In this document: one piece after another, positions 13,000 to 61,157 of the stretch
How positions within the stretch are numbered: position 1 is the first letter of the stretch
Layout: every line of letters begins with the position of its first letter
Assembly: GCA_030141605.1 (NCBI GenBank)
Contig: JAQGDQ010000001.1
Coordinates: forward strand, 62,001 to 126,000
Direction: 5' to 3'
Origin: Tubiluchus corallicola
Lineage: Eukaryota > Priapulida > Priapulimorpha > Priapulimorphida > Tubiluchidae
DNA length: 64,000 bases
Program-made: the position numbers and the translations under genes
Notes under the pieces: model-generated
Told to the model about the DNA's origin: nothing
Seen by the model: only the letters and a program-made list of their open reading frames with translations
Database searches by the model: none

Positions 13000-14440
13000 A
13001 TAATAATCATCATGATGTTGATGCTGTCTAAAAAAAGCCTTGGTGAGGAAAAAGGTCCTATCAAAAGCCTGCCTGCAAAAAGGAACAAATAACAAAGTCA
13101 GCCATGCAGCCTTCTGTTTCTCTGATTAGCAAACATTGTCAGCTGTCTGCTAGTGATGAAATGATAAATAATAAATCAACTACTGATGACTATGATAGTT
13201 GTTGTGAAGTATATCGTTGCGTAATTTTCAGTAGTACCTGTGCCATGCAATCTGATTGATATCATCTTTGGTTTTGTACTTCTTGCCTTAATAAGGATGA
13301 TGCCACTTATCATGCCCACTGTACTCTAGACATGTCAAGGTCTTGGCTCTGTTCTGAGTGCCATCCCAAAGACCTCAAAGCTATTGCTACTGATAAGACC
13401 TTTGATGACAAAATGCAGGAGCTGTATAAAATGATCGATATTAAGTTTGAAGCTTTGAAATCTGATATCTCATCCAAAGCTTCTGCTGGTGAGGCTGCTG
13501 TTTTGAGTGCCAAAGTTGATCATCTACCCACAAATGTAGAAAAGAATGTCTTCATTGCAAAAAGGTCTTGTACCTATAGCAGAGAAGATTGAATCTCTGG
13601 TAAATGAGCCCAATGAGAAGCAAAGACTATCTAAGAATATTATTTTAAAGTGTGTACACAAATCCTCACCTGTTGACCCTTCTATTGCTGTCACAGACGA
13701 CAAAGCCAGACGTTTGCAAGTTCTGAATATGCTTGATTGTTCTACTGAACCTGTTGTAGTTAGACGCCTTGGGGCTAGAAAACCAGAAGTGATCCGACCC
13801 TTCTTCTTAGGATTTAACTCAGAATCTACAGTGTCTTAGCTGCTACAGAACAAGCAACATGTTCAACATGTTTCAAAAAGAAACAAGCAACAAGCAAAGA
13901 TGTTGGTTCCTGGTACAATGAAGTCTTGATTGGATGGCCAGAGAGTAAGTAAAAGCAGCTGCAGCTAGAAGTCTCCAAAATGCAATAATTTTGCAAATTG
14001 ATCTGTCAATACAACAGTGATCACAAGACCAGAATCACCCACTCTGTAGGTCAGTGTGATGACAGCCATATAATTGGGAGAAATGGTCGAGTCATCCCCA
14101 CACTAAGATGTAAGCACGGCATTACTATTAGCATCAGCAAACCTCCTAATCCCAACAGCTTGACTGATGTTGGTGTTGATGGCACTGAGAAGTCGTGTCT
14201 AGCGATGACATTAAGCAACACTTAGAAAAGGTGTTACGAGAAGGCTAACTGCTCTATATACCATACTATCAACCATCTTACTGTATAATCCTCTGTTCGT
14301 TCTTGCAGTGATGTTGTTTCCTGTAAACCAGTTAATGTTGCCATCAGTTCTAAAAACTCAGTGAGAGCAATCGAATAAATCAAGAATCATTGTAAAGGTG
14401 TATCAACTAGAAAACCAGTAGCACTGGACAATAAATGGTT
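13000..14440 (+). mobile_element. Decayed LINE ORF1 region (fragment B): PHD-like zinc finger, coiled coil, RRM-like segment and KH-like segment
   Basis: At 13200-13375 the translation shows Cys/His spacing of a PHD-like finger ending in WLCSEC, with one internal stop. A helical segment follows (13380-13530). Then NIILKCVHKSSPVDPSIAV...DDKARRLQVLNMLDCSTEP (13635-13760) resembles RNA-binding ORF1 proteins of CR1/L2-type LINEs. At 13998-14222 the frame reads HIIGRNGRVIPTLRCKHGIT, a KH-domain GxxG loop signature. Several stops make this a pseudogene remnant. Whether the KH segment belongs to the same element is uncertain. Confidence 0.65.
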
Positions 14441-14829
14441 TGGTTAATTGCCGTAATAAAGTAAAATCCAGTATGGCGGATACGGTCATTACTCGATGAA
14501 AAGAAGAGATATGGACAGGAAATTTTCTTTGACAGAACAAAAACAATTGAAATTCATAGAAAAGTGAAATGCTAACATCTTTCTAAAGGGAATTGGCTAT
14601 AATAGACAGGCAGTAGTAATAATACTTTTCTAAAATAGTATTTCACAGTAGAATAGTAATTGTGGAAAACAATAGTTAAATCGTGGAATCTAACATTGTT
14701 TAGACTAATTGATAGTATATAATTATAGAAAAAAGTAGCAAATAATTGGTAGCTGCCTAAATTGGCACATTTTTTTTAAGCTATAGGTTCAAGTACCCGG
14801 TGGTCGCAAAGTGTAAGGCTAGTTAGCAC

Positions 14830-17800
14830 GAGGGAAGTACTAATACTGCGAGGGAAGGTGCCAATCCAAATTAGAAGAGTCGACTATTAAGACAGCGTGG
14901 AAGAAGAGATAAGTAGGCTGATACAGTGTGGGGGACTGTATGAAATGGGTACACAAGAACTGTACAGGAATACCGGAACACCAAATGAAATTGCATGAAA
15001 AACAGAAAACAAGCAAGTATATCTGCAAGAAATTTGCTGTAGAGAAGTATAAGGTAGAATTAAAAGAGGTATCAAAAGAACAAGGAAAGGAAGAATTGAC
15101 AAAAAACGATGAGTATAGAAGTGAAAGAAGAAAACAGAGAGTTAGGTAAAAGGACTCAAAGTCAACAAGAAAAGAGAGCAGAACTGTCAAAGAAGAACAG
15201 AATGTTAGAAGCAGGAAAAGAGGAAACAGAGAAAAAGAATAAAATAGAAATACAAAAAAAATTTACGGAAGTGCTGAAACTAAAGATGGAAGTGGTTGAC
15301 TACAAAAAAAAATACGAAGAGGGACTAGCAAGCTTGCTGAAAATAAGAAAACATTAGGAAATCTTAATTCCTATTTAGCAAACTTAAAGGCAGTAAACAC
15401 AAGGCTAGAAACAAAAAATATCGAATATGAGGAAAACAGGAGAACTTTGAAACAGAAGGGTAGTATAATTACAATAGCAGTCGGATAGTGACAAAGAAGA
15501 AATGGCTGATAGAAATCACAGGTGAAAATGTGTTGGTCTATGGAGAAAACAGGTTTTTGTAAATTTGGGGATGTGTAAACTTGATCACGGAGTGGTAGGA
15601 GGAAAGGAAAAACAGCCACGACAGAAATAAAAAATACCTGAAAATTGCTGGAGTTTTGAAAGAGACGTTGAGTGCAGGTATGGGCCAAAGTGCAAATATG
15701 AACAATTGAACATAGAGTGAGAACTCTGTGTAGTAAATATGACAAAGAAAAGAAGTGCAAGTTTGGGGAACACTGCAAGTTCCGTCATTATTACAGTGAA
15801 AACGAAAAAAAGGTGTATAGTGAAGGGAAGTACAGGCCTGTCTACAGTACACAGAATTGGGGTGAACCTACAGAGATTAGGTAAAGATTATTTCAATCAA
15901 GGAGAGCAGAGGAACCAGATTTAGAAGACATAACTAGTAAGGTGGACATCTTACTAGAAAGAATAGGGGGAATGTCAACCTAGGATAGGAATAGATCTGA
16001 GAGCAAGTTATGCTTAGTATTATGGACACCAAAGCAGAAATGAGTATAAGACGGGCTACTCTGACAAGGAAGGAAATAGACAATGAATGTTAAAGAAAGG
16101 AAACAAAAAGGAAGCAAAGGAAATAAATAAATGTTTAAATAAAGAATGTGGCATAAAAACTGTTACAAATAAAAAAATAGGAAAAGAAAACAACTTGGTC
16201 AATTAAAGGAAGAAATAAATATAAAAATTTCCAAGTCCTGTATGTGAATGCAAGGGGAATCAAATCTATAAGTGACTTATTGAAGGAAATAATAAAAGAA
16301 GTAAATCCATTAATTATAGTAATAGTAAAAACACACTTAATAGGGCAAGAAGATGTTGATATACCAGGGTACATATCAATTTTTACAATAATAGAGAAGA
16401 AGGAAAAGGAGGTCTATTAATAGAAATAAGTAAACATAAGCCGGAAGAAAATTAATAAAATTAATGAAACAAGAAAAGTTAATACTAGTAAATAATTGCG
16501 AAAATACAACAGGGTTGTGGACAAGAGTGGAGGGAAATCAAAAATCTGTAACTGATTATGCATGGAAATATACGGAAACAATATTATGCAGTTCAAAAAA
16601 TGATAATCGATGAGAACAAGGTGTATGGTCTATATGGAATAAAAAACAAAGGAAATTAAAATCAAGAGATCACAATACTATATGGTTAACACTTAACTGG
16701 AGTGAAATGTATATAAAAATCAGGAACAAAAACCAAAAACGAAAAAATATTACTATACACCCAATGTGGATTAATCAAGCTTAACAGATTAACAGAAGAT
16801 AAACACTTTGTGAAGGTATGGGAGAAGAATAAAGAATTGATTGGCAAGAAGAAATTATGAATATAATGAAGAAATACTTTCAATCAAGGATGAGTAAAAA
16901 AAAAGAAAAACGAAACTAGAGAAATTAATAAATTATTAAAAAATGAAAAGAATGATAAGAAAAGAGAGGAAGCAAAGTGATAATTTAAGTCAAATAAAAT
17001 TGTTGAAAGTAAAAGAACAATTAATTGATGAAATAATATATAATAAGAAATAAGAAGACTGCAGAATACATATCGAAGAAAATATTCATAATATAAGAAG
17101 TGAAAAAGGTATTAGTGCAAATGCATTCTGGGAATTTAAAAAAAAGAATAGATAAAGGTATAAATATAGTGGTAATGAATAATGACTGAGGGGAAACAGT
17201 CGAATCATCAGAGAAATAAAAATATTTACAATGTATTACAAAGACTTGCTAAAGCCTAGAAATGCAGAATCTCAAACGGAGCAAGAAATTGAAGCAAGGG
17301 TTAATACCTTTATACGGCAATTACAAATAGTGGGTAAGGAATTTGAAACAGAATTAATAACGGAACAAGAAGTTAAAAAGGAAAGGATCAAAGAGCCCAT
17401 TCGTATTGAACAATTGTGAAACATGGACGAATATTAAAAAAGATGAATGGGAGAGTCTGGAAAATGTAGAAAAAGAGACTCTGAGAAAAATTCTGAATCA
17501 AAACAATTAGTACTCCATACTGGGGCAGGTTAGCACAAACAGGTTCGTGGCCTATGTAAAAGAGGTTGACCATAAAAAGACTATGTTTTATTATTCACTG
17601 ATGAACTCAGATGGAAACAAATTAGCAAAACAAGTAGTAACTGAGTAAGAAAAAAGAGCATGTAAAGATTGTTGGTATTCAGACATAAGTGAGATTATGC
17701 ATAAATCAAGCAAATAAAAAATGGAGAAATTACAAAATCAACATGGAAAAGAGAAGTGAAAAAAAGCTATAAACCAAGAAATATTACAAGAACATAAAGA

Positions 17801-18110
17801 TAAAGAACAGAGGATGACAAAATTAAGATTTCTTGATGGTGAAAGATATGAGAAACAATGATATTCAGAGAGTGTGATCTTGCAGACATAGTAAAATTAT
17901 ATAATGGAAATTAAGTTAACTACGGAAGAATTAAACTGCAATTACAAAACAAATAGACGGGAAGATTTATTATGTTCTAAGTGCAGGACTCAGGAGGATA
18001 CAACAGAACGTGCATTAAGTTATGAAAAATCGGAAAGAATAATAAATGAGTATAATGTAAGGACAGAGACTATTACTATATTTAGTACTATTAATTATTA
18101 TTAAAACAGC
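14830..18110 (+). mobile_element. Decayed LINE (fragment C) with PHD-like finger, coiled coil, tandem CCCH fingers, endonuclease and RT tail
   Basis: In order: a PHD-like finger at 14930-15040 (CMKWVHKNC ... YICKK); a very Lys/Glu-rich coiled coil at 15040-15480; two CCCH-type fingers at 15640-15800, the second with canonical C-x8-C-x5-C-x3-H spacing; and an APE-type endonuclease start at 16220-16440 (LYVNARGIKSISDLLKEIIK, then IPGY, then a +1 frameshift). An SRDHNTIWL-type motif lies near 16660. A linker at 17231-17420 (YYKDLLKP, ELITEQEVKK) is followed by C-terminal RT-tail motifs at 17520-18060. The RT catalytic core is missing. Many stops and frameshifts; not active. Confidence 0.7.
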
Positions 18111-18289: not shown

Positions 18290-19650
18290 AAGCTGATTTT
18301 GGAAAAGGGAAAGCGAAACCAGTGAAGCAGTGAACCAGCAATGACATTAATTTTCAGAGTCTTTAGCTACGGAGACATTCCCAGTGATTGGAAGTTATCT
18401 CGCATTAGTCCGATTCATAAAAAGGGACCTAAAAATAAACCTGCAAACTATAGGCCAGTTGCAATTACAAGTACTGTTGGCAAACTGCCAGTGAGGCATG
18501 TTGTCAATACAATACTTGTCTATCTGCAGTCTAACAATTATTTAAAAAAGATCCCAACATGGGTTTCTCAAGAAACAGTCAGTGACAATCGAATATGTAT
18601 TCTCTACACTGGATCACGGCAGTCCTCTTGACTTAGTATACCTAGACCTAGCAAAAGCATTTGACAAAGTCCCACATAGAATATTGCTGCTCAAACTTGA
18701 GGCATATGGTATTCAAGGACAGCTGGTTAACTAGATAACAGCATGGCTAAGTGACAGTTTCCAATATGTCGAAGTCAAGGGTTGTGCATTTTCTACTGTC
18801 CCAGGTCTATCAGGAATGCCACAAGGACGTGTCCTCGGACCTCTGTTATTTCTCATCTCCATTGCCGACATGGATGATAATGTAGGTAGTCGGCTTCTCA
18901 AGTTTGCTGACGATACCACATTAGCTTATCCAATACGCTCTTCTATGCAAGTGAGACAGCTGCAAGAAGATTTGCACCAAACCTGTGCATGGGCTGACAA
19001 ATGGCAGATGGGATTTAACACACTTGATGGTAAATGTAAGGTGATGCATGTGGGTAATCAGACCAATCCAGCCACATACAGCTTTGGTGATGTCGATTTG
19101 CCTGTAGTCACTGAGGAGGTGGATCTTGGACTGTTAGTAGATAGCAAACTAAACTTTTGCAGTCATGTCTCTAAGAAAAATACGAACTGTAACAAGATCC
19201 TTGGATTAATCAGTAGAACCATAACTTCCAAAAGAGCTGAGATAATTCTCCCACTATACAAATCTCTTGTTCATTCTCATCTCGAAAATGTCAGTCAGGT
19301 ATGGGACCCTTACTATCGCAAGGACATCCGTGCTCTAGAACAGGTACAAGCACGAGCTGTGGACATGATCATAGGTCTTGAAGGATTCCCATACTTTCAA
19401 AAGCTGCAAAAGTTAGACCTGTATCAACTCTCTGCAAGAAGACGTAGGGGAAGACTAATTGAAATGTTCAAGATTCTTAAGGGATTTACTGACATCAATG
19501 CAAACCAGTTTTTTTACACTCAATAGAAGCATTACACGTGGGTATAGTGTTAAATTGTACAAGCGTAGGGTTAATACTGAAAAGTATCGGCATAGTTTGT
19601 CACAAGCCAAAGTAACTGTGGAACTCATTACCGGAATCATTAGTAAGTGA
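18290..19650 (+). mobile_element. CR1-like LINE reverse-transcriptase fragment (fragment D)
   Basis: The frame at 18341-18631 carries GDIPSDWKLSRISPIHKKGP and NYRPVAITS, the start of an RT domain. After a frameshift, LDLVYLDLAKAFDKVPH (18630-18675) is RT motif A. The long frame 18816-19526 holds GMPQGRVLGPLLF (family consensus PQGSVLGP) and the catalytic FADDT at about 18902-18916. It continues through the thumb region to CR1-type motifs such as KRAEIILPLYKSLVHSHLEN and LEQVQARAVDMI. A frameshift near 18630 and a stop near 18732 break the ORF. 236 residues remain uninterrupted. Confidence 0.92.
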
Positions 19651-37265: not shown

Positions 37266-37365
37266 AATAGGCTGATTGAAAAGTGGAATTTTATAATAAT
37301 TGCACATGGTCAAGTCTTAAGTTAAATGAAATGTGACTCCTAAACAATCAACTGATAAGGGCAAA

Positions 37366-39144
37366 ATGGAGGACACAGCTGATAACGATCTCGAACTTAA
37401 AAGCTCGAAAACGAAAGAAGACGATGGCGTCGATGCAATAGCTGCAGAGGTCGAGATTCAAAAGTCTAGTCTTGTTAGTAGTAAGAAGCAGCGAAATCGT
37501 AAAAGAAAATTACTGAAAGACATACGTGAGCAAATGGAGTTTTACTTTAGTGATTCTAATCTACACAGGGATAAATACTTGAATGAGAAATTAAAAGAAT
37601 CAAGCGATGGATTCATTCCTTTATCAGTTTTTGCTAAATTTAACAAGATAAGTGCTTTAACAACCGATGTTTCGGTTCTTGCAATTGCTTTACAGGCATC
37701 ATCTTTTCTGCAAGTTAATTCAGAACACAAAGTTAGACGCATTTCAGAAATAAAAGAACTCACCAATGCAGATGACTGCACTGTGTATGTAGAAAATTTA
37801 CCGAAACATGTAACCCATAATTGGGTTAAGAAGATTTTTAAGCGCTGTGGAAAGGTGACTTATGTTAGTTTGCCAAAGTACAAAAAAAGTGGTGACTTCA
37901 AAGGATTTGGATTTGTGGAATTCAGTTGTCCTGAAGCAGTAACCACAGCATGCATGGAACTGAACATGCCAAGCACTTCGAGAGATGATTCTGAATTGTA
38001 CAGTGAACATTCTACTGATGATGAAGAAGTACAAGAATACCACGAATCTCTTTTGAATCGTCGTAGTCACAGCTATCGAAACAACATGATGGGCAAAAAA
38101 CAAGATTGTAAGGATCACACAGTCAATAGCCATGAATCAGGCAATCACAAAAACCATCATAACAGTCATTCTGTGCATTATGAGAGTTCTAGTAAAGACC
38201 AAAATAAAGCAGAAATACATCATTTGCGTGGCCGCCACTATAACGACCATCGCATTCAACATATTGATGGACAGAAGTGTGACACTGACAATGAAAATAG
38301 TAAAAAAGACCAAACAGAAGCTGCAAAATTGGTTGTTTCGCCAGTTAAACGTAAAGTTGATGAAGATGGCGATACTAATCTGACAAATCCACTTTTCAAG
38401 AAACTTAAAACTGATCATGATGACAGCAATCAAACAAAAGAGCCAGAACAGGATAAAAAAACAGTGGGTATTTCTATAATGTCTAATAGTAATGACAATG
38501 TTACACTTGATTCTAAAGCCAAAAGAAAGCCAATGCGAAAAAGGCGAAGACATCGTAGAGACAATGTGGCAAGTTTGCATCCACTTCATGTAATGCCAAA
38601 AAAACAATGGTTAGAATTGAAAGCGCAGTATAAAGCAATTCAAAAGGCACATGTAGCTGCTATAAAACAGAGTTTGTTACTTAGTGATGCTTCTTCCTCA
38701 AGTATGGTGCACAAAACCTTCCCTGTTATTCAAGAAGTTAAGCCATTGAAAGAAAATCAGACACATGTGTGCAGTCAAACAATGGTACCAGGAGTTATTA
38801 TAAAGGTATTTAGTAAGGAGCCAGTAAGTAATATCAGAAAATTGAAAGATAAACTTAAGGAAACAGGGTATGTTGCTTATCTTGATTTGAAAGATGGTGA
38901 CACTGCTGGCTTCGTTCGATGTAAAAATGCAGAAAGTGCTGAGAAACTGCTGAAAGTAGAAGCGCTAAAAATGTTTGATAATGATATTTTGTCTGGAGAG
39001 GCTGAGAAAGAGTACTGGAAAAAAATTGAAGAAGATCGCAAGGAGAGATATGCAAAAAAAAGCAAAAAGCGTGGGAAAGTGAAAGTTGTAGATCAAATTG
39101 ACAAGTTGGCCCAAGAAAAAAACAAGCATATCTTCTTCGATTGA
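37366..39144 (+). CDS. LARP7: La-related protein 7 (LARP7), single exon, 592 aa
   Basis: LARP7 binds the 3' end of 7SK snRNA and stabilises the 7SK RNP that holds P-TEFb; it also guides U6 modification. The La motif is at about residues 48-128 (REQMEFYFSDSNLHRDKYL, DGFIPLSVFAKFNKI). RRM1 is at about 138-205, with RNP2 VYVENL and RNP1 KGFGFVEF. A long acidic/His-rich low-complexity linker contains a basic NLS-like KRKPMRKRRRHRRDN. The C-terminal xRRM is at about 475-560 (VPGVIIKVFSK, GDTAGFVRCKNAESAEKLL, EYWKKIEEDR). The start chosen is the first in-frame ATG, 37366, in a good context (AAAATGG); the frame is open a little further upstream but without an ATG. Intronless, unlike the other host genes here. 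An AATAAA at about 39666 may be the polyadenylation signal. Confidence 0.96.
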   Translation: MEDTADNDLELKSSKTKEDDGVDAIAAEVEIQKSSLVSSKKQRNRKRKLLKDIREQMEFYFSDSNLHRDKYLNEKLKESSDGFIPLSVFAKFNKISALTTDVSVLAIALQASSFLQVNSEHKVRRISEIKELTNADDCTVYVENLPKHVTHNWVKKIFKRCGKVTYVSLPKYKKSGDFKGFGFVEFSCPEAVTTACMELNMPSTSRDDSELYSEHSTDDEEVQEYHESLLNRRSHSYRNNMMGKKQDCKDHTVNSHESGNHKNHHNSHSVHYESSSKDQNKAEIHHLRGRHYNDHRIQHIDGQKCDTDNENSKKDQTEAAKLVVSPVKRKVDEDGDTNLTNPLFKKLKTDHDDSNQTKEPEQDKKTVGISIMSNSNDNVTLDSKAKRKPMRKRRRHRRDNVASLHPLHVMPKKQWLELKAQYKAIQKAHVAAIKQSLLLSDASSSSMVHKTFPVIQEVKPLKENQTHVCSQTMVPGVIIKVFSKEPVSNIRKLKDKLKETGYVAYLDLKDGDTAGFVRCKNAESAEKLLKVEALKMFDNDILSGEAEKEYWKKIEEDRKERYAKKSKKRGKVKVVDQIDKLAQEKNKHIFFD

Positions 39145-42063: not shown

Positions 42064-43303
42064 TTACAAGTTTTGTACAAAACTGTTAGCAGCTTGATCT
42101 TCTGGTGTATCTAATGCTATCTGTTCAGAGTCCATGCTTTGCTTGAGCAAAGATATGGTATTTAATGATTTGCCATTTCCAATGGTCAGATATTGTAACT
42201 CTTCTTGATGGTTGATTGGACTGTTGTGAGTTTTTGTGTGACTTTTCAGTTGATACAATCGTGAGAACGACTTTCCACATACCTCACAACTGTAAGGCTT
42301 TTCCCCAGTGTGAATTCTTATGTGTTGATTGAGTTCTACGGACTGGCGGAATGCTCTTCCACAAGTCCCACATGTGTATGGCTTTTCACCAGTATGTTTC
42401 AAAAAATGTCGCTTTAAGTCCCACGATCTGCGAAATGCCTCATCACAAACTGTACAATGATAAGGTTTCTCCCCAGTATGAATTTTTTGATGATCTTTGA
42501 ATAAACTGGATCGTGCGAATGCTGCATCACATACTAAGCACCTGTATGGTCTCTCACCTGTAAATGAAATAAAATAACTACAAAGGCAGTTGCAGCCTTT
42601 TAGTGCGAGAACTGAATAGCAGTCTCGACGAGCCAATTCCTAACAATTTCAAATAAGTGGTAGGGATTATTAGGGATCCAGATTTGAATGCCTATTTAGA
42701 CTGTACAGTGACCAGCTAGTTTCGGGTCTATAACAAATTTAAAAGCCACATTAAAAGATCATGCTGTTTGAAATGTCTAGATCAAGTCGAATATTACTTA
42801 GTACGTGACCAAGTCTTATAAGATCACACATCATTAAAAACTTACAATAAAATGCATAAACATTAAATTTATAAAGGCATTAAAAAGGCAAAAGTTGAAC
42901 GCTCATTAGGATTTACATTGAGATATGAATAGCAAAGTAATAACTTGTAATTAAATCTTGTTGAAACTTAAATTGCTAAACCAGGTTCAGGAACAGTCTC
43001 ATTATTTGTCCCTTATCGGCCTAAACTTGGTGTATAATCACAGTTTTAACAGTTAAGTCCACTACCTCATTTATACACCACTTATTACTCACCTGTGTGC
43101 ATCCGAATATGTTGTTTCAAATGTGATGACTGTGTAAATGCAGAATCACACTGGTCACATGTATAAGGACGCTCACCACTGTGAACTCTTTGATGGCTTC
43201 GTAGTTTACTTTTCGTTATAAATGCTGCATTACACTCGTTGCACTGATGAGTCTTTTTAGTGCTCATAGCGGTGTTGTTGTTAGGTAACACCTCAACGCT
43301 CAT
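42064..43303 (-). CDS. C2H2 zinc-finger protein, six fingers, at least two exons
   Basis: A putative DNA-binding transcription factor. Exons 43303-43093 and 42557-42064 join in phase 1 (GT/AG) inside the linker HTG|ERPY. With the ATG at 43303 the protein has 234 residues. There are six fingers, each C-x2-C-x12-H-x3-H, with HTGEKPY-type linkers: HQCNEC..., YTCDQC..., YRCLVC..., YHCTVC..., YTCGTC... and YSCEVC.... The C-terminal tail of about 55 residues is Ser/Gln/Asn-rich. The exon extends upstream to an acceptor at 43320 (TTTTCCACAG), so one or more 5' exons probably exist. If they are coding, the N-terminus would be longer than given here. No orthologue can be named from the fingers alone. 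Confidence 0.88.
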
Positions 43304-44284
43304 ACTAGCTTGTATAGTGACTGTGGAAAATAACACAAAATCTATCATTATGTAGTTCAAATCAAGTGGATCCTAATTTGTACTAATTCTCCATTGCCAC
43401 TGATTATGCTACATAAAATGAACACTGCACGCACATTACAACAAAAGTCCAAACCTCAGTAAAGTAAACTTGATTAAAACACATGACATAATTTTTTTAC
43501 TAAAGGAAGCACCTTTAATGAATCAATAACTTGTATAGGTTAGATTGTCATTTGAGTTATCCCAATTTATGGCTTTATTTAGTATGTGAATAGTTTTTAG
43601 CTTGGAATGGTTCAGCAATAATTAGACCATAATGAAGAGTGCCCATATTACAGTTTTTATCAGGTAGTTTTTATCACATTCTGATACCTTATCCAAAGAA
43701 ATAAGGACCTAGGTGGTAACTATCTATAAACGTTTCTCTCTCATATGCCTTTTGAAACTCAACTGATAAAGCAGTGATAGATGATGATGAAAGATGATTC
43801 CATGGTTGAACTACACTACCCAAAGTGCGATCTGATATTGGTTCTAGCTGGTTTCATAAATAACTTAGATTCATGACTACGAAGAACTCTGTGAGGCCTG
43901 AAAAAAGTCTGCCTCAGTCAGAACAGTATTTCCACTAATTATTTTGAAGCAGTTCACAAGGTTTACAGTTTCACACCTTTGTTCAAGAGTAGAAATTGAA
44001 GTGGGATCCAAATCAATAGCAAGACGAGTACATCAATCCTTTTTAGAGCATTCTTGAGAGTAGCGTACTAGGGTGACCATACAACGATGCATATTCCAGA
44101 ATGGGTCGAACAACAGTTTATAGAGAGAAACAATTACTGTTGCATTTCTCGATATCACACACTGCTTAATCATGCCAGTACAATGGTTTGCTTTTGTAAT
44201 GATAGGATTCACATAGGAATTCCATTTGAGGCATTAGAAATCATTACTTCCAAGTTTCTGATACAACTTTTTTCAGCTATTTGA

Positions 44285-51493: not shown

Positions 51494-54400
51494 CTAAAGG
51501 TCGTTTATTATGCAATCGTCAGAATTGAACGTAAACACGTTAAGTTTCCCACATTTTCCCAAGTGATTGTTGGAGGCGTAAGGCGATATTCCTCCAGCAG
51601 ATCCAGTACAACTGATTTGATTCACGTCTTTTTCCCAGAATCCAATGGTCCCTCTCATTAACACACCCTGTTACAAAAGAAAATAATTTAATTCTCTAAT
51701 TCTCTAAATAAAATAATTCTCTAATAATTTAGCCTCATCGGTGATCGATTACTACACTTTTATTATGTATAATATGTACAAGTAATATTTTGGTTTATAC
51801 TACAACAAATGACAACAACAATGACAATAACTGTGACAGCGGTAGCTAGACAAAGGCTCTGAGTGGGACATCTACAAAGTAAACCACAAATGATACCGTA
51901 GCGGCCAAATAAGAAACTTTAAATTACCAGTTACTAGAATTAATAACAATTGCAAATACAAGAATCTCCTCTTTGTTCCGAGCTACCTATAGTGCGAAAG
52001 CACAGCTAACTCAAAAAGTCCTTTGGAAAGCAAGAGAGTAGCAGCGTACCACCTTTAATACGAGAAATATACACACAACACCTCAAACCCGACTTCTATC
52101 GTGACAAGTTAATTAATTGCTGAGTTTTGTCATTTAATTTTGTAATTGTAAAACCGGAAAACCCGTTCTGACTAATTTGCTACGATTGAAGATCCGAAGA
52201 TTTCAGTTAGCGAACTTAGTTGAGTGCTCATCAAACCTGGTGCGGCGAAGATAGTCTAAAGATAAAATTGTTAAGTTCGTACGCAGTGTTGCGGTATGTA
52301 ATATGTAGTACACCTTGGAATTACGGGCCTGGGCCAAACGCGCGAGCGATTCTAAACTAAAGACTTCGAATCATTTTACTTCGAATTTCTATTACGTCCG
52401 CCGCGTGTAGGCAGAGTGGCTGCATATAATTTTGTGATTCTGAGGTTTGTTGTCAGTTACCTGTCTGTTGGCAGATCTGGAGACATTGATCCTATTATTA
52501 AAAATAATCGAAATTCTGAACCAAAAACGCTAACCTAAGCGTATGGACTATCTGATAAATATACAATACCTAGCTGTAAGCATGGTCGGATTAGCACTTT
52601 GCGGGGCCCTATCTCAGCTGGGAGGTGCTACGATCCCTTCCCGCAATAATGTTCGGAAGTATAAGCCTGAAAGGCATTTCTGTTCTTTCATAACTTCATA
52701 ACTTCAACAAGTTATTGAAAATGTAGGGTGCATTAATTGTATGAGTGCAGGTACGGGCGCGGGGTCCTTCTAGAACGCCTGACCTAGTTGGCCTATTCAA
52801 TAATCCGCCTTTTAAAACACAAGAAAGCCCTCCACTTACATAAAGCTTAAAAATTCGTCTTGAAATTTTATAAAACTTAAACATTACCATTTTGCATGCA
52901 GGGCTTATGTCGACAGTAACGCTGTATAAAATTTGCGAATTTTGCGAAAACTCCCGCTGTGACCGTCAGGTGCAGCCATTTTAATGGTAGGTCGTTTGAA
53001 ACAAGTTTAGATATGTATTAATTGTATTGACATTGCGTGACGTTTGAAAAACATAATTAGCGCATTCGTAGAAGACACGTTACTATATAAGTAAAATTTT
53101 AAATTACTGTATCTTATCAATATGATCAAAAAAAAGTTTTTTGGTTAGTGAGTGGCTCACTCCGAGTGAATGATAGTTTACCAATTTGCATGAAAATTTT
53201 AAATTATTCTAGTAATATAAGTCTTTCAAGTAGACAAGCGAAATGCTATGTAATATAGATTTACGTGGATAGTTTTTTTGAGACATAATTTAACATCGTC
53301 TTTTCTTCCCTTGATTTACGTTTACGTAGCGACGTCATATAATGGCTCCCGCCGGAACAGTATTGCGTGACGTTTAAAATGAAGACAAGCAAAAATTCCC
53401 TTTAACGCGAGTATGATATATGCATAAAATTGCTGTAAAATAGCAACATTTTTAAGGCGAACTTTTTGAAACCTATTTCAGGTATCATTTTTCTTGTCCT
53501 TTAAGTACGCATCTTTATGCTGTTACCGTATAGGCCATTTACATAAACCAAAACTCTCCTGACTTCAATCTTTTAAATTCTAACCTTTACTTCAAACCAC
53601 CCATCTTCTGTTTTGCTACAGTCAATTTCTATTTCCAACATCCAGTAATGATCTCCGAATGAGTTCCAGATCTGGAAACCGTCGCTTAGGGGGTCATTTG
53701 TGGTCCACGCCAGTGGAGATCCAAGAGGATGTAAACCACTATAGCTGCCTACAAATATGTAAATAAAAACTGTAAACGTCTGTTGTACACATATACGGCC
53801 TAATTTTACTTCAGGTGCATAGTAAGCTTATAAAGCAGGATCGTTAAATACGTGAAAGCGCCAGCTTGTAGGAATCTATGCCCAATAAACATGTTTATAA
53901 TACTGGATTGCTTGTAATAATTTAATTTAAGCAATTTAATGCGTATGATTGATATCAACCAATACGCGTATACATGTAGACGTATATTGTACGTACACAG
54001 TTACTGTGAAGTAATTTAAAGTAGCGAGCGAGTTTTTTGATAGTTAACAAAATTTCAAGAGTTTATCAATTAGTTCAGTTAGAAAGCCGCTTATCATTTA
54101 TTCGCTTATCCTCTCATTGTTTGAGTGGATGAATGCTTTAGCTAAATGCGCCGCGTTAAGAATGTGTAGTGTAGATGAAAGATAGTTTGATGGTTTACAA
54201 ATGCGACTGCTACAATAGATGTGGTCGTAATTCAAAAAATGGATGGCTGAAATTTAGGGTTAGACCAGGGAGTTGCAAATTCAACAATGAATATAATCTA
54301 AACTATATACTGCTACTGCTACTACTACTGCTACTACAGCTACTACTGCTACTATCAGCTTTCACCCCCCCTCTCGGCCGCATTCTGATTGACTGATGTT

Positions 54401-57400
54401 AGTAATCTACCATGTCTGTTACATGTCATAAAACCTTGGCTTAATTAGATGTTCGCATGCAGGTATAAAGAAATCAATCACAATTGATTAGTACCACCTT
54501 GATTAGGCTCTGCTCCATACCAGTCTAGGTGATTGTCTTGATGCTTCCACGAATGATAGGACACGTAAGATGAATGGACGTCTCCAACGTGCTTGATTGG
54601 AATGGAACATTGGCTCGTATATGCATCATTTGTACAACCTGTTAGTAAGATTAATTTTTTAAGTCATTACAGAACATTTCGACGGTTATTAATTTATTAT
54701 CGGAGCTCGAGTTATATTGCATCTAGAATCGATCATGCTTATTGTGCACGTGTGGTGCACCAATGCTAACAAAAGAAATCGGCACTAAACAAGAAAACCA
54801 CTTGTATTTGTACAGAGCACAGCGCTTTTCTACTCTGCATTTCCTACGGTGTAATCAGCCATTCATTAGAAAAAAGAATACAGTGTTATTCATCCGTGTT
54901 CAATTTCAGAGCTTTTCCTGCTCAACATATTTTATGTCGCGATTATTAGTGATCTTTGGCTTGAGTTTGATCTCAGTCTAGGAACTTCGTTTTGTCTCGC
55001 AATATTAACTTTACATGCGTGATGGTATTTTTACATAAGAAGAAAGCTATAGATGAACTTGACCTCAAATAATCTGTCACATTGTATGTCCGTAAAACAG
55101 AGTCGAACCCATTGCCTCTCGGGTTATGTTTTTCATGCCTATTTTGGAGTAGTTTAAACTGGATCAAGAGTATCAAAGATATTTTAGTTTTAGTTGATCA
55201 ATGGAACCAAACTTCAACAATAATAATTATCAGAAATAAGTAATTTTTTTAGGGGGGGGAGTCAAAAAGCAGCAGATTTACCAAATAGGATAACTTCGTT
55301 ACTGGTAAATATTTGCTACAATGATAGCGGCCGAGGGTGTGCTGACACTTATAAATAATTTTGTAATTGATGAGAACACTTCAAGTAAAAATGTAAACTT
55401 AATAAAACTCGGCAATGTCCTCGGCAAAGGATTGTGTATTTTCAGGGACAAAGTCAATGATGTGGCAGCTCTAGGTAATATGATGCCCTAGGAAAGTATT
55501 TTTAGCATCCCCTTTTCAACGGGTATTAACTCTGCGATTCCATGCACCACACCCTCAAAACTGAATTTTTGTTGCATAGAATAATGCGTAATGGCACCTG
55601 TGTGCTAGACTTATAAGTGTACTAATTAACTGAAGTTAACTACCTATCTACGATTGATTTCATTCCAAATTGAATGTATGACCATATAGTACTGGGTCTT
55701 CAAGAGAAATAAGAATTTCTACAATGTCTGCTGTACACATTTCATCAGGTGCATACACTTGACTGGATTATCGCTCAACCTTTTCTTCAGAAAATTTTTG
55801 AAACACTAATTCTTTTTCGCGTACATCCATTTCACTACTTAGATCGTCTTTAAAACAACAACTTGCAAATAGTTCATTAGCGTATCTTTTTGTTGTTCAG
55901 TGTCCAACCGCATGCTTTTTTCATTTCGTTTTCTTTATTACGCTCCTGAGGGCTTCGATTGTTATAGGTTTGTCCGCTATAATTAGATAAATTATACACC
56001 TAGAAAACAACTTTTTATTAGCGGAAGGAATTACTTTCTCTGCTGTTTTTTGTGTACAATATAAACAGGATAGCGCGTTTAGATGAAATGATGTAATATT
56101 AGGAAGCCAGGTACAGTAAAACTAGATTGTTTATCTGAGGATGAGACATTCGTGTTAGCATTAACGAATCATACATTCTGACAGGCAAGAAATTCGTTTC
56201 GTTTCAGTTACCTGAAGTATTATGCACACATACAATTACACATAGACTATGTTATGTTAAACTTAAAAATGGATTACTTCTAGAATTTGGCGATCCCCCA
56301 AGTGGTAGAGCTAGCGTTTGACTCAAACGAAATGATTAAATTACCTGGTCGTATTGCATGATCAATTCCTCCACGTGCAAAAAGGTTCTCACCCGGAACA
56401 GATTCATATTTCATAAAGACTACAGTCCGTGTACCGAGCAATCTACAAAACAATGAAATTGCCGCAAGTTTTCGGATACTCGTTTGCGATATAACTCTCG
56501 TAATTTTGTATATTTTGACTAACTAGCTAGTAGCAGAATAGCAGTATACGGCATATAATTTTGATATACATGGTGACTGTTTTCGACATAGAGGTCTTAC
56601 TTCATTTAAAAGGTATACGTACAAGTCAGTGCTTGATTTAAGCCAGCTCAGATAATTGCTTATTCTAGTAAATACTGTAGGTTGACCTGGTGTTCCACAG
56701 CCGATACCCCAGGACACAACTCCAACCAACGTCGTCTTATCGTTGAATTCCACTGTTAATGGTCCACCCGAATCACCCTAGAATAATTCAGAATACATGT
56801 GTGACGGCGTAACGGGGTCGGTTCTTAGGGTGAGGAAGTACCCGAGACCTGACTACTAGCCGAGTGTGATAAGGGCTTATAGCTACGAGGGGTTCTCACG
56901 CTGCTACTCCTTTAGTCATCAGGCATCGATTACGTCTTCATACATAAATAGCAAAAGAGTTAAGCTTAGGTTCAACGATATATTTTGACATGACAATTTT
57001 AACAAATTAAGCTAGGTTGTAATACGATGCAAACACGTAAAATGCACATAACGTATAGCTACCTCATTAATATTAGTGCTCTAGCTAAATACTCATACCG
57101 TGGCGCCATGTAATGGGAGAAATAATGTACAGACGTCCGGTTGGCCGGCAGGTTTCTCAACAAGTCCTGTTCACCACAAAGAGTAAGAAAGGAGCTCCTG
57201 ACGACTGGTATCTGTCGCTCACCACCAGCGTACTCCCACCATTGGTCCTCGGAACTCCAAGCGTCACTTATGGCTGACTCGTATGGGAATCCTCTTAAGC
57301 AACGACTCTAATAACTCGAAGGCCGACTTCCATTACTACGATGGTCTCACCAGGTGTGGCTATCCACCAGTCCATCAAATACGGCCACTAATCACCATTT

Positions 57401-59918
57401 CACAGCGGGTGTACCCAGTTCCTCCATAACAATTACACTGCAACTAGTTCTTGCACCTAGCGCTTCATTCATTAGTGTAATTTGGAACAATAAAGGTTCA
57501 AAGCATTAAGCTGCTGATAATCATTCTACGTTTGTCTGGACTAGTTAAAAGGTGAAAGCATTTCAACCACTTCTGACATGTATGTAACTGAGCGTCGTAT
57601 AGCCCATGCTGACTGTCTATTTCCACACAGGTAACGGCGATCAGAAAATAGGTCAGTGTCAAGCAAGTGCTTCATAGAATAAGCGATTACCACTGTAAGG
57701 GGGAAAGAGCTAGAACAAACTAAATACCTATTACTATCTATGCTCAAACGAGGTAGCTATAAACAGTAGGCTACTATGAGGTAGTTATGAGCAATAACAG
57801 TAATAACAATAGTGGTGCAAGGGCAAATATAGCTCAAACTAATGCCGGTATTGAATTGAGGCACCATAGACCTATGGGGCCGTCACAACATACAACATGT
57901 GTGAGCCATCTGTAGCGGTCTTTTGTATATTGTTAAGCTATAATTAACATAGTCAGATATAAAATTAAAATAACGCGGAATCATCAAGCTTTTATTCACT
58001 AGAGTCAAGCAATGCTAATTCATTGTTGTAGTTAAGCCCATATACTACACGAAATTCGTAATTCTAATTTCTTACCCCACAAGCAGCGACTCCACCACTG
58101 ACGTCGCCAGCGCAGATCCACACGTCGGCATCAACTGGAGCATAACCTGGTGCATCATTACATGCTTTTGCTGTCCATATAGGCATATTAACCATTTTCA
58201 AATTCACAGATGTGGAACATCCTGTATATGAAGAAGTCGTTATCTTTATAAATTAGTATAAGACTGAACAGTTTGAGTGAGTAGTTTTGAAAGCATTGTT
58301 TATATTTAATGCAACTATAATTACCATGACCAATTAATTTTCAAAAAATTGCTGGCTTAACAAACTCGTTGTCATATTGCTCTTAGACAGTAACAGTTCA
58401 CAAAGGTAAATGTATCACGTTACCATTAGGTTAACATTTATTTCATGATAGTAAGTCCTTCTAAATCGCGGTGTACCGCGCGAAAACGTGTATCCGAAAA
58501 ATGTAAAATGTATTATTCCGATAACAAAGGCCAAGAAAGGTGATGTTGAAATAAAATATTCAAGTATATAAGTATTAGCAGTTAATTGTGACCAAACTGC
58601 ATTTTTATACGATCATATAGAAAAGTGACGGCACGTGTTCCATTTATTATATACTTTTTTGACGACTTTTCCAGCTATGCGTCTCTTATCTTGCGTGACT
58701 TTCAGCATCAGCAGAATCTGACAGATACCAAGAGAACACAACAATCGTAAACTTCAGTGTTTGCACTATGTTTATTACCGAAATGTTTATGCTGTCGATT
58801 CAGTGCGAAGAGCTTCTCGTTTTCATCTTGTATGTACAGTATATTCAAACTGACGAATTTCACTTTGTAATTAAGTGTACTTTTTAAAATGATTTGAGAA
58901 ACTTATCGGGCTACTACTAGAACTATATCTGTTTTTTATGCTTGAGTAATAGTGATAAATTTATTCTGTTGATGGGCAGCAGTGATTACAAAATTGTTAA
59001 AATAATCGTTAGCTATGTTGATAAAACCTATAGCAATTAACGTTTCAAATACTTGACTAATAGTTGTTTTATGATGTATTAAATTACTAATGGGAACTAG
59101 TTTGAACCATAGAATGTTTTAAATTTACTATTAATTTTTTAGTATGTCTCATTCTTTGTTTCCATGTGTTGATCATATTTCATGAATTGAAATTATAAAT
59201 TTGTATGTATTTGTTTATGTTTAATTGGCATAGTAAAGGTTACTAAAAGATATTATTTAGATTAATATTAGCAAAACTGTAGCTAAAATAGCTGCATGGC
59301 ACTGGCTATGTTATACCCTCACAGGTGGCGCCCCATCCTGACGTTGTCCCAATGTAAGTATCAAAGTTTTCTTCGTGATTATCCGGTAGCTCAACCGGTT
59401 CAATAGACTCAAGGTGCGTGTTCGCTTCTCCATTCATTTCAATAACAGCTAGATCGTGGTAGCCAGTTGAAGAAGTGTACAGTGGGTGTATTATGATTCG
59501 TGATACCACCAGTTCCTGGACAGGGCTAGTCAGCCGATCGAGTTGACCCAGTTGCACAGTAAATCGTGATGGATACATGTCAATGCTAAAATTAACATTA
59601 TTATGATAAGGAAAAGATTTCAGAATAGTTTCTAATTGGTTATATTAACGTAAATATGTCGTGCACAAGGCTATGTTTGATTTAACCAAAGGTTGTATGA
59701 TTTATACATGCGTAAAGTAGGTCACATTGTTCATTGCTCTTTAAATTTGATGACAGACAATTTTGACTCTGAACTAATACAGAAATGTTTTAACTAATAC
59801 ATGTTTGTACTACTTAACAGAAAAGAAAACTGACTGAAGTCAAACTAAAATCAAAGCAAAAGAGTAATAGATTTTAGTACCTTTAATTTAACGAGAGGCG
59901 TTTTGTGTAACCAAATAA

Positions 59919-59961
<43 letters not shown>

Positions 59962-61157
59962 ATACCTTTATATGCGCATTTTTATACAGGTACAATAAAA
60001 ATGTATAACAACACGTCAAGACAACATGAACGCTGTTCGCAATAATAAATTGTATAAGACAGAGGCTTACTTTCTAACGCAGTGCGCCGCAGTTAAAGCA
60101 TATCGTTTACTTAACAAAACGCCACCACATAACTGTCCTCCCAGATAGGTGACAGCAACGGTATGAGGAACGTCTCCAAGTTTCGCATTTGTGCCTCCTA
60201 CAATTCGAGATGTCGCCTCATAAGCTGAAAAATAATAAGCTGCACACTTGTAAACTTTATCTTGCGTTATACATCATTAAGTTATCTCTCGTTATACATT
60301 TTCAATTACGTTTAAATTAATGAATGAAGTACATGTAATAATTAATTGCATGCCCCATTAAGCAATTTTGCCAGTACATAAACGCAACCATTTTACCTAA
60401 ACGTGATTATGACACCTGACTATAATATCACATGATGTACATCGTTGGCGTTATTATAGGGTTCGCCCTTTAAAATTTTCGCAGAATATTTTCTAATTTA
60501 CAGAAGTTCGCTCATACAAGCGTGTGATCTAAACACGGATTAAACGCAATCAGTTTGTTATGCCTGTCTCCTACTGTAATAATAAATATTGAATATTAGC
60601 TCAGAATACTGAAGCAAGTTTATGATTAAATTTAATGAGAAAAACAGAATGTAGTAGTTCAGCAAGTGTTTCAATAATTTGGTACTTCAATATCAGGGGT
60701 TAGGCAACTCAATAGCCGAATTACTTACAGACAAGCACTTGAAAGGAATTCGTTACTGATTATAAGACTATTTAAGAGCAAAATCTTTGAGGAGTTTTCG
60801 CTACTAATAAATAATATTTATGCTTTAACATACTCCATAAAGTCATTATAGTTCATGCATGTAATTATTAAACATGTTCAGATTCGAATGTACAACGAGA
60901 GATCGCCGTTGAATGATATATTTCTGTACATTAAATTTCTGTACATTTCTGTACATTTCTGTACATTAAAATCTGCTGTTTGTTAGCATCTCTTTAAAAA
61001 ATATGTCATAAATAGGCTAAAAATAGCACATTATTTGAAATAAAAAAACGGCTAAATTACAATTATTTTTGCAATTTGTAGACCAAGTGTACCTGTAATA
61101 CTTACCGCACAGAGATCCCAATAAAGTCCACAAATATAGGAGCAAATAAAAATTCAT
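51494..61157 (-). CDS. Secreted chymotrypsin-family (S1) serine protease with novel Cys/Trp-rich C-terminal domain, 9 exons, 450 aa
   Basis: Exons, read downward: 61157-61106, 60224-60071, 59585-59317, 58221-58076, 56777-56623, 56442-56345, 54638-54498, 53748-53585 and 51667-51494 (TAG stop). All phases agree. A signal peptide (MNFYLLLYLWTLLGSLCA) and a very short propeptide precede R24|IVGG, a tryptic activation site. The triad is intact: TAAHC (His65), YHDLAV (Asp113), CGGDSGGP (Ser210). The S1 pocket has Ala at the 189 position, Gly at 216 and Thr at 226, so trypsin specificity is unlikely; elastase- or chymotrypsin-like is possible. Residues about 259-450 form a separate domain with six cysteines and many Trp/Tyr (RTVVFMKYESVPGENLFARG, HLDWYGAEPN, DHYWMLEIEIDCS, SNNHLGKCGKLNVF). 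From memory this resembles an accessory domain of some invertebrate alpha-amylases, but I cannot verify that. The donor of exon 5 (GTACGT) is the weakest splice call. Confidence 0.88.
52805..53530 (+). repeat. Dispersed repeat family R2, copy 2, in protease intron 8
   Basis: Shares, in the same order and orientation, CTTACATAAAGCTTAAAAA, GTCTTGAAATTTTATA, GCTGTATAAAA, TGAAACAAGTTTAGATA, AAATTACTGTATCTTATCAA, GTTTACCAATTTG, AAGCGAAATG, GACGTCAT and GCATAAAATTGCT with 27430-28100. About 70% identical by eye, truncated at both ends. Confidence 0.85.
54306..54353. repeat. (CTA/CTG)n trinucleotide repeat
   Basis: CTACTG and CTACTA units repeated over about 48 bases within protease intron 7. Confidence 0.9.
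56795..58075. other. Protease intron 4, containing a GC-richer block
   Basis: The stretch 57100-57480 is clearly less AT-rich than its surroundings and contains ACCGTGGCGCCATGTAATGG, which recalls sequence near LTR retrotransposon ends. No LTR pair, gag or pol sequence was found, so no element is called. Confidence 0.3.
59922..59957. repeat. (AT)n microsatellite
   Basis: About 17 AT dinucleotides within protease intron 2. Confidence 0.95.
60928..60970. repeat. Short tandem repeat TTTCTGTACA
   Basis: Four copies of a 10-base unit, partly separated by TTAAA, within protease intron 1. Confidence 0.85.

Follow-up and report, generated by a model that had tools for sequence, protein, structure and literature searches.

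The window, a 64,000-nucleotide stretch of the Tubiluchus corallicola contig JAQGDQ010000001.1, carries on its minus strand a nine-exon gene, predicted from the genomic sequence, that runs from 61157 to 51494 with GT and AG at all introns and the exons in phase (Table 1). The coding sequence of 1353 nt translates to 450 amino acids and a stop. The product consists of a signal peptide, an S1 protease domain, a linker of about ten residues and a tail of 192 residues (259-450) with cysteines at 293, 302, 382, 413, 432 and 445. A sequence-only reading of this DNA had described a serine protease with about 190 extra residues and six cysteines, and both counts agree with ours. It had also placed four tail exons in consistent phase exactly where we find them: each has an AG acceptor, the first three have a GT donor, the last ends in the stop codon, and the entry phases are 2-1-1-0. 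The interval it gave, 51494..56777, holds exons 5-9 and is too short, as the gene begins at 61157. Scans of the window with Rfam and for tRNA gave no match.

Table 1. Exons of the protease-tail gene and its fifth intron, in window positions.
Feature	Position	Strand	Evidence
Exon 1: start codon; signal peptide MNFYLLLYLWTLLGSLC, read by eye	61106..61157	-	GT donor; joins exon 2 in phase 1
Exon 2: activation site TSR/IVGG, catalytic His65 (TAAHC)	60071..60224	-	AG/GT; Pfam Trypsin
Exon 3: catalytic Asp114 (HDLAVIEM)	59317..59585	-	AG/GT; alignment to PDB 2f91
Exon 4: residues 159-207, with Ala204 at the trypsin Asp189 position	58076..58221	-	Gene model; alignment to 2f91
Exon 5: Ser210 in GDSGGP; S1 domain ends, short linker begins	56623..56777	-	Gene model; Pfam
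Intron 5, 180 nt	56443..56622	-	No polyA signal; four ATGs, each reaching a stop before the tail
Exon 6: end of linker and start of tail (RTVVFMKYESVPGENLFARGGIDHAIRPG)	56345..56442	-	End position and phase 1 as in both amylase genes of this genome
Exon 7: tail, Cys293/Cys302, W322, LDWYG W331	54498..54638	-	Both ends common to the amylases of this genome, phase 1
Exon 8: tail, W353, GDHYW W374, Cys382, WFE W389	53585..53748	-	Gene model; residue-column counts
Exon 9: tail end, W404, Cys413, Cys432, Cys445, stop codon	51494..51667	-	Gene model; residue-column counts

Judged from its sequence, the gene codes for a secreted S1 serine protease with an elastase- or chymotrypsin-like pocket. The Pfam Trypsin model covers residues 25-253 (E 7e-48, 163.7 bits against a cut-off of 20.6), and His65, Asp114 and Ser210 lie in the TAAHC, DLA and GDSGGP motifs. 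A short propeptide is predicted to end at Arg24-Ile25, the putative zymogen cleavage site. The triad and the pocket were read from an alignment to crayfish trypsin (2f91), in which Ala204 takes the place of Asp189 and Thr240 that of Gly226. With Ala189/Gly216/Thr226 (position 216 counted by hand) rather than the Asp189 that marks trypsin specificity, the pocket is therefore elastase- or chymotrypsin-like. The nearest tail-less protease paralogue (C84), 56-59% identical, is encoded mainly in one exon; about 6 kb downstream of it showed no domain match above chance.

The tail is homologous, on sequence comparison, to the C-terminal domain of the animal's own GH13 alpha-amylases, as the sequence-only reading had supposed. 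Two amylase genes of this genome, which a GH13 query of 480 residues matches over its positions 13-474 and 7-473, carry domains that are 56-57% identical to the tail over 188 aligned positions, with six cysteines each. The tail scored 241 bits against the C166 amylase domain, for which 1000 shuffles reached at most 26.6 bits; the other amylase was outside this control. The first two tail introns have the same position and phase (both 1) in the protease and both amylases, while the phase-0 intron before exon 9 is absent from the amylase tails. The homology runs over the full length of the domain, but the domain does not follow a GH13 enzyme here: no GH13 match lies within the protein, and its partner is the S1 protease. 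Three more genes of the genome, two of them adjoining, look like a signal peptide followed by the domain alone. These stand-alone copies are 36-39% identical to the protease tail; among the bacterial domains, the seven with the highest scores reach 38-45%.

Could protease and tail be two genes run together by prediction or misassembly, the protease stopping in exon 5? An unspliced reading of exon 5 does meet a stop after a short extension. However, intron 5 is short, has neither AATAAA nor ATTAAA, and none of its ATGs leads into the tail. On contig C1874, about 12.8 kb upstream, lies a degenerate tandem copy that repeats the order and strand of the intact gene and matches the window at 61567-61122 (87%), 60713-58852 (73%) and 51688-51330 (85%). 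Although its frame is broken and exons 4-8 were not found, the copy keeps protease and tail exons together, which argues against an assembly chimera, and its order and strand show that the two parts were joined before the duplication. Given the content of intron 5 and the order in the copy, we reject the two-gene artefact as extremely improbable.

No family model describes the tail. It had no match above chance or cut-off in Pfam, NCBIfam, PHROGs or the PDB, in keeping with the earlier remark that its pattern fits none of the standard accessory domains of proteases. Among 17 members of alignment A4 searched against Pfam, the best values were E 0.02 for one member and 0.22 for another, both under the cut-off. 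The tail and two bacterial domains were without a match in NCBIfam at E up to 1, and PHROGs gave none at 0.01. The PDB gave none with profile A4 at E up to 10 and one, at E 1.2, with the tail alone. We took the sub-threshold matches, DUF3997 (E 0.02), DUF4815 (E 0.22-0.24) and PDB 7l7z (E 1.2), as chance. A viral or phage origin was discarded: a pattern scan of IMG/VR found no relative, and of two tblastn searches of phages one gave a single record at E 3 and the other none. Scanning genome contigs with a single sequence found no relative; an alignment including two plasmid homologues found ten loci.

The bacterial relatives were found at 69 places, in groups of 6, 9 and 54, of which we read 6, 9 and 24, the last being 20 loci and four picked for odd frame length, a biased choice that supplied the M4 case below. 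L007-L010 were left out of the scan, and L005, with its frame broken upstream of the domain, is outside the resulting 39. These 39 comprise 26 GH13 and eight GH14 enzymes, one protein with a CBM21 pair in which no enzyme was found, and four proteases. The partner was assigned by Pfam in 16 (L053 as L003, L054 as L011, L055 as L012, L056 as L091, L060-L064, L071, L078, L084 and L092-L095) and, in the other 23, by blastp against a single GH13 or a single GH14 reference. Thus 34 of 39 bacterial places, and the two GH13 genes of the animal, join the domain to a carbohydrate-active enzyme, which the protease gene itself does not; 35 of 39 are alpha-glucan hydrolases or carry starch-binding modules. 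The four proteases are of three types, S8 (L063, L091), M12 (L011) and M4 (L093). Like the protease described here they bear the domain at the C-terminus, but their catalytic domains belong to other families, so these fusions arose separately from the S1 fusion, and three of the four have extra PKD, FG-GAP or sub-threshold CBM48-like stretches, the last in one of the two S8 carriers.

The tail has been kept rather than eroded, since it retains 49 of the 58 columns conserved in at least 95% of 43 other rows (41 bacterial and the two amylases; the three stand-alone rows, whose exons were joined by eye and may lack one, are omitted) and shares the family's six tryptophans. It departs at the other nine columns. 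The tryptophans are present in all six rows from this genome and in at least 40 of the 41 bacterial rows. Trp366 of the protease tail is missing from all other 46 rows. The tree and column counts used 47 rows, 41 of them bacterial, after duplicates (L052-L055, L072) and L001, L002 and L092-L095 had been left out. In the tree the protease tail sits on a long branch (0.61) and groups with the two amylase tails, though support for this group is mixed (93/45).

By its title, a 2017 study by Da Lage reportedly concerns an optional C-terminal domain of bilaterian alpha-amylases. The amylase tails of this genome match that domain by description, and we infer that they are the same. The protease differs from it in its S1 partner, its extra phase-0 intron, its Trp366 and a linker shorter than the Thr-rich spacers of the animal's amylases. 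An extra C-terminal domain on the alpha-amylases of some species is also mentioned in the available part of PMC3096672. Among papers listed by literature searches on such a fusion or on the amylase domain, no title or abstract opening mentions a protease fused to this tail, and the accessible portions of PMC7003070, PMC11239784, PMC3820357 and PMC2275215 contain nothing on the function of the domain. The domain is thus known from amylases, and the S1 fusion is new within what was searched, which among animals was this genome.

The domain has been studied experimentally in one case, the Pseudoalteromonas haloplanktis amylase AHA. A 99%-identical orthologue of it, L078, departs from the mature AHA chain (PDB 1aqh) at five of 453 positions as counted on the printed alignment, and carries this same domain after that chain as its C-terminal propeptide. 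In alignment A4 this copy and the window tail are 41% identical; like the domain in all 41 bacterial rows the copy has four cysteines and lacks the Cys413/Cys445 pair. According to PMC1766363, a secreted protease cuts the AHA propeptide off outside the cell, within a spacer, and secretion can proceed without the propeptide. Neither point demonstrates binding. Two further systems are comparable by description or analogy. The CBM69 of AmyP, a demonstrated starch binder (residues 497-639, with two flanking cysteines, in the excerpt of PMC5355875), is also a C-terminal domain on an alpha-amylase of marine origin. Cgt of Actinoplanes, a small secreted protein with a single CBM20 (PMC7275007, in part), is an earlier example of a starch-binding module secreted on its own and so an analogue of the three stand-alone genes of this genome, although CBM20 is a different family.

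Fusion to an amylase tail suggests, short of proof, that the protease is directed to a carbohydrate surface. Binding of starch or another glycan, the role proposed in the sequence-only reading, is the best-supported one for the tail, from context and conservation, though the conserved tryptophans could be core instead of surface residues. The account we favour, and consider somewhat more probable than not as a whole, is of a secreted S1 protease held on a polysaccharide surface by an amylase-derived, carbohydrate-binding tail. The gene model, the homology, the shared introns and the spread of the family are observed, and from these we infer the rest. An ancestor would have taken the domain over from an amylase gene, and the tail would act as a disulfide-stapled binding module. 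It may hold the enzyme on an alpha-glucan-rich or other polysaccharide surface, such as a food particle, a starch or glycogen granule or a microbial matrix, where proteins embedded in that surface would be digested alongside the work of the amylases. The ligand need not be an alpha-glucan, because four of the 39 bacterial carriers are proteases in which no glycoside hydrolase was found.

The tail might instead be a C-terminal propeptide that helps the protease to fold, keeps it silent or aids its secretion, and is later cut off. The position of the L078 domain and the fate of the AHA propeptide fit this, and the host protein, itself a protease, could cut itself. We nevertheless think it unlikely: the AHA propeptide can be dispensed with for secretion (PMC1766363), and the linker is shorter than the spacers of the amylases. 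A maturation aid would also have no need of the varied partners seen in bacteria, which include unrelated enzymes and a CBM21 protein. The three genes whose apparent product is a signal peptide followed by nothing but the domain also favour a binding module over a maturation aid. Slightly less probable is a tail that acts like a lectin on microbial or host glycans; the enzyme would then be a protease of immunity or mucus, not of digestion. Secreted-type stand-alone copies, two side by side, are consistent with this, as are the bacterial versions on proteases, including the M12 carrier, whose top NCBIfam match is a biofilm-associated metzincin far below the cut-off. The closest relatives in the genome are, however, amylase tails, and the bacterial places are predominantly alpha-glucan related. 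That the tail was fused by accident and is functionally idle seems very improbable. The degenerate neighbouring copy points to an unstable locus and the tail has a long branch, but the conserved columns, the shared tryptophans and all six cysteines are retained and the splice sites are intact across four exons. The identity to the amylase tails suggests that they parted long ago, yet the frame is open.

Under the favoured reading of the tail as a binding module, a wider picture can be offered tentatively, at rather less than even confidence. The tail may be an ancient and mobile module for binding polysaccharides that no family model covers, common to animals and to bacteria related to Pseudoalteromonas, Reinekea and Microbulbifer. 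It would have been joined separately to at least four protease families (S1, and bacterial S8, M12 and M4), to amylases and to stand-alone secreted proteins, making proteolysis on polysaccharide surfaces a recurrent and unnoticed strategy. In the literature consulted the animal domain is described as optional, and that of a model cold-adapted bacterial enzyme as a propeptide. The occurrence of the domain on a protease, as apparently stand-alone secreted proteins in the same genome, on unrelated bacterial proteases and on a CBM21 protein favours a general role in binding, which is testable with small soluble constructs. If the tail does bind, it would define a new CBM-type family, and the S1 fusion would be a protease targeted to carbohydrate.

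The protease gene has nine exons on the minus strand, bounded by AG acceptors and GT donors, which join into a single open frame of 450 codons plus stop. The four tail exons proposed in the sequence-only reading have exactly the coordinates of the new model, and the six cysteines it claimed for the tail were all counted in the translated domain. The catalytic residues His65, Asp114 and Ser210 are present. In alignment with crayfish trypsin (2f91), Ala204 takes the Asp189 position and Thr240 the Gly226 position, so trypsin specificity would not be expected.

Features of the protease gene, its product and the rest of the window
Feature	Position	Strand	Basis or content
Exon 1	61157-61106	-	splice sites and open frame
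Exon 2	60224-60071	-	splice sites and open frame
Exon 3	59585-59317	-	splice sites and open frame
Exon 4	58221-58076	-	splice sites and open frame
Exon 5	56777-56623	-	splice sites and open frame
Exon 6 (tail)	56442-56345	-	splice sites and open frame
Exon 7 (tail)	54638-54498	-	splice sites and open frame
Exon 8 (tail)	53748-53585	-	splice sites and open frame
Exon 9 (tail)	51667-51494	-	splice sites and open frame
Predicted signal peptide	residues 1-17		by eye
Pfam Trypsin	residues 25-253		E 7.2e-48
Tail domain	residues 264-450		six Cys, seven Trp
La domain and two RNA-binding motifs, long ORF	37330-39141	+	domain matches
Reverse transcriptase fragment	18735-19523	+	
C2H2 zinc-finger exon	42067-42639	-	
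C2H2-like frame	43088-43372		by eye

Elsewhere in the window, we take the frame with the La domain to be LARP7-like, and the reverse transcriptase fragment probably belongs to a retrotransposon. Positions 14001-18000 show a strong purine skew on the plus strand (GC skew 0.26-0.33, AT skew 0.28-0.36).

Intron 5, which separates the protease from the tail, is just 180 nt long and contains no AATAAA or ATTAAA polyA signal, and each of its four ATGs meets a stop before reaching the tail. A degenerate copy of the gene lies outside the window on the same contig (G000:C1874, about 135970-142067), some 12.8 kb upstream. It matches the exon 1 region at 87%, the exons 2-3 region at 73%, with frame breaks, and exon 9 with its 3' flank at 85%; exons 4-8 have no match in it. 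As the copy keeps protease and tail parts in the same order and on the same strand, the two were a single unit before the duplication. Exon 9 differs from its copy at 5/4/7 sites by codon position, with 6 codons changed silently and 9 non-silently, which is weak evidence on constraint.

The tail matched nothing above cut-off in Pfam and nothing in NCBIfam, and gave one chance-level match in PDB (E 1.2). A profile of the domain, run against PDB to E 10, had no match there, and none of its 17 members matched a Pfam family above cut-off or anything in PHROGs. The source genome, 343.5 Mb and intron-bearing, has amylase, S1 and zinc-finger genes of animal type, which points to an animal. Searching this genome with the tail gave 18 places: four in the fused gene, one in the degenerate copy, three in each of two GH13 alpha-amylase genes, and seven in three stand-alone genes, of which two are on C1477 and one on C2279. 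The amylases were assigned not by Pfam but by matching a 480-residue GH13 from Pseudoalteromonas, one over residues 13-474 and the other over 7-473. In the stand-alone genes, whose exons were joined by eye and may lack one, a signal peptide leads straight into the domain with no enzyme seen. The protease tail shares 56-57% identity with the amylase tails (which share 73% with each other), 38-45% with the seven highest-scoring bacterial domains and 36-39% with the stand-alone domains. The amylase tails have two introns, both in phase 1 and both placed exactly as in the protease tail, which has one extra intron, in phase 0. A simple exon swap at a common boundary intron is not shown, because the first tail exon of both amylases runs on from the catalytic exon.

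The nearest tail-less protease paralogue (on G000:C84; positions 7621-7992 of locus L057) has a low-complexity extension ending LTTLLG, followed by a possible GT donor. The window gene's linker also reads LLG, a likeness that is possibly coincidence. At G000:C2247:247813-260850, S1 protease matches stand in a tandem row of eight. Every one fits in a single open frame, 272-301 codons long; unlike the window gene, these appear intronless.

The first bacterial relative was on a Pseudoalteromonas plasmid (43%, E 3e-38), and a search of genome contigs found ten loci with the domain. It occurs in 9 of 22 genomes of the Reinekea family, 51 of 295 sampled from the Pseudoalteromonas family and 4 of 144 from that of Microbulbifer harenosus, in whose class it was found in 1 of 369 sampled genomes, M. 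harenosus itself. These family surveys gave 69 places; the 39 read for partner domains, four of them chosen for odd frame length, comprised animal-type GH13 (20), maltotetraose-type GH13 (6), GH14 (8), S8 protease (2, one also with a sub-threshold CBM48-like stretch), M12 metalloprotease with PKD (1), M4 metalloprotease (1), and one protein with two CBM21 stretches and a sub-threshold CBM53 stretch, in which neither Pfam nor NCBIfam found a catalytic domain. The S8, M12 and M4 fusions show that the module has joined proteases more than once. In M. harenosus the domain is attached both to an S8 subtilase that has FG-GAP repeats (L091, on G002:C9) and to an M12 metalloprotease with PKD (L011), two proteases unrelated to each other.

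All 41 bacterial rows of the alignment have exactly four cysteines; an extra pair (413, 445) is present in 6/6 own-genome rows and no bacterial row. Cysteines 293 and 302 are jointly absent from the three stand-alone models, which are approximate, and this hints at a 293-302 disulfide. Six tryptophans occur in each of the six own-genome rows and in 40 or more of the 41 bacterial ones; Trp366 is found in the protease tail only. Of the 58 columns with 95% conservation or more across the 43 other rows, the protease tail matches 49, departing at E277, N295, S318, one gap, W366, I378, I380, F403 and G430; the N295 departure is a cysteine shift also present in the animal's amylases. In a tree whose program flags long branches, the protease tail groups with the two amylase tails (support 93/45), and own-genome and bacterial domains split (99/96).

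That animal amylases can carry an extra C-terminal domain is already in the literature (title of Da Lage 2017; PMC3096672). In a search of mainly open papers and no animal sequence collection, we found no published report of it on a protease, so priority for the fusion is not established.

A bacterial locus (L078) encodes a chain differing from the Pseudoalteromonas haloplanktis alpha-amylase (AHA; PDB 1aqh) at 5 of 453 positions, counted manually, with the domain coming next. We conclude, through this locus rather than the AHA strain's own gene, that the AHA 'C-terminal propeptide' corresponds to this domain, there following an amylase chain and here an S1 protease. That propeptide is described as structurally independent and removed extracellularly, with secretion possible without it (PMC1766363). 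These data favour a propeptide role in that one bacterium but explain neither the stand-alone copies nor the unrelated partner enzymes, and for the protease tail we consider such a role unlikely. That the tail is a lectin or immune module seems to us unlikely too.

Homology, architecture and conservation of the tail are evident from sequence, and it may bind carbohydrate. An alpha-glucan is favoured as the putative ligand, because starch enzymes or starch-binding modules account for 35 of the 39 bacterial places read and for the tail's nearest relatives in its own genome; room for other glycans is left by the stand-alone copies and by the four bacterial proteases, which have no amylase domain. 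On balance we lean towards a tail that would target the protease to polysaccharide.
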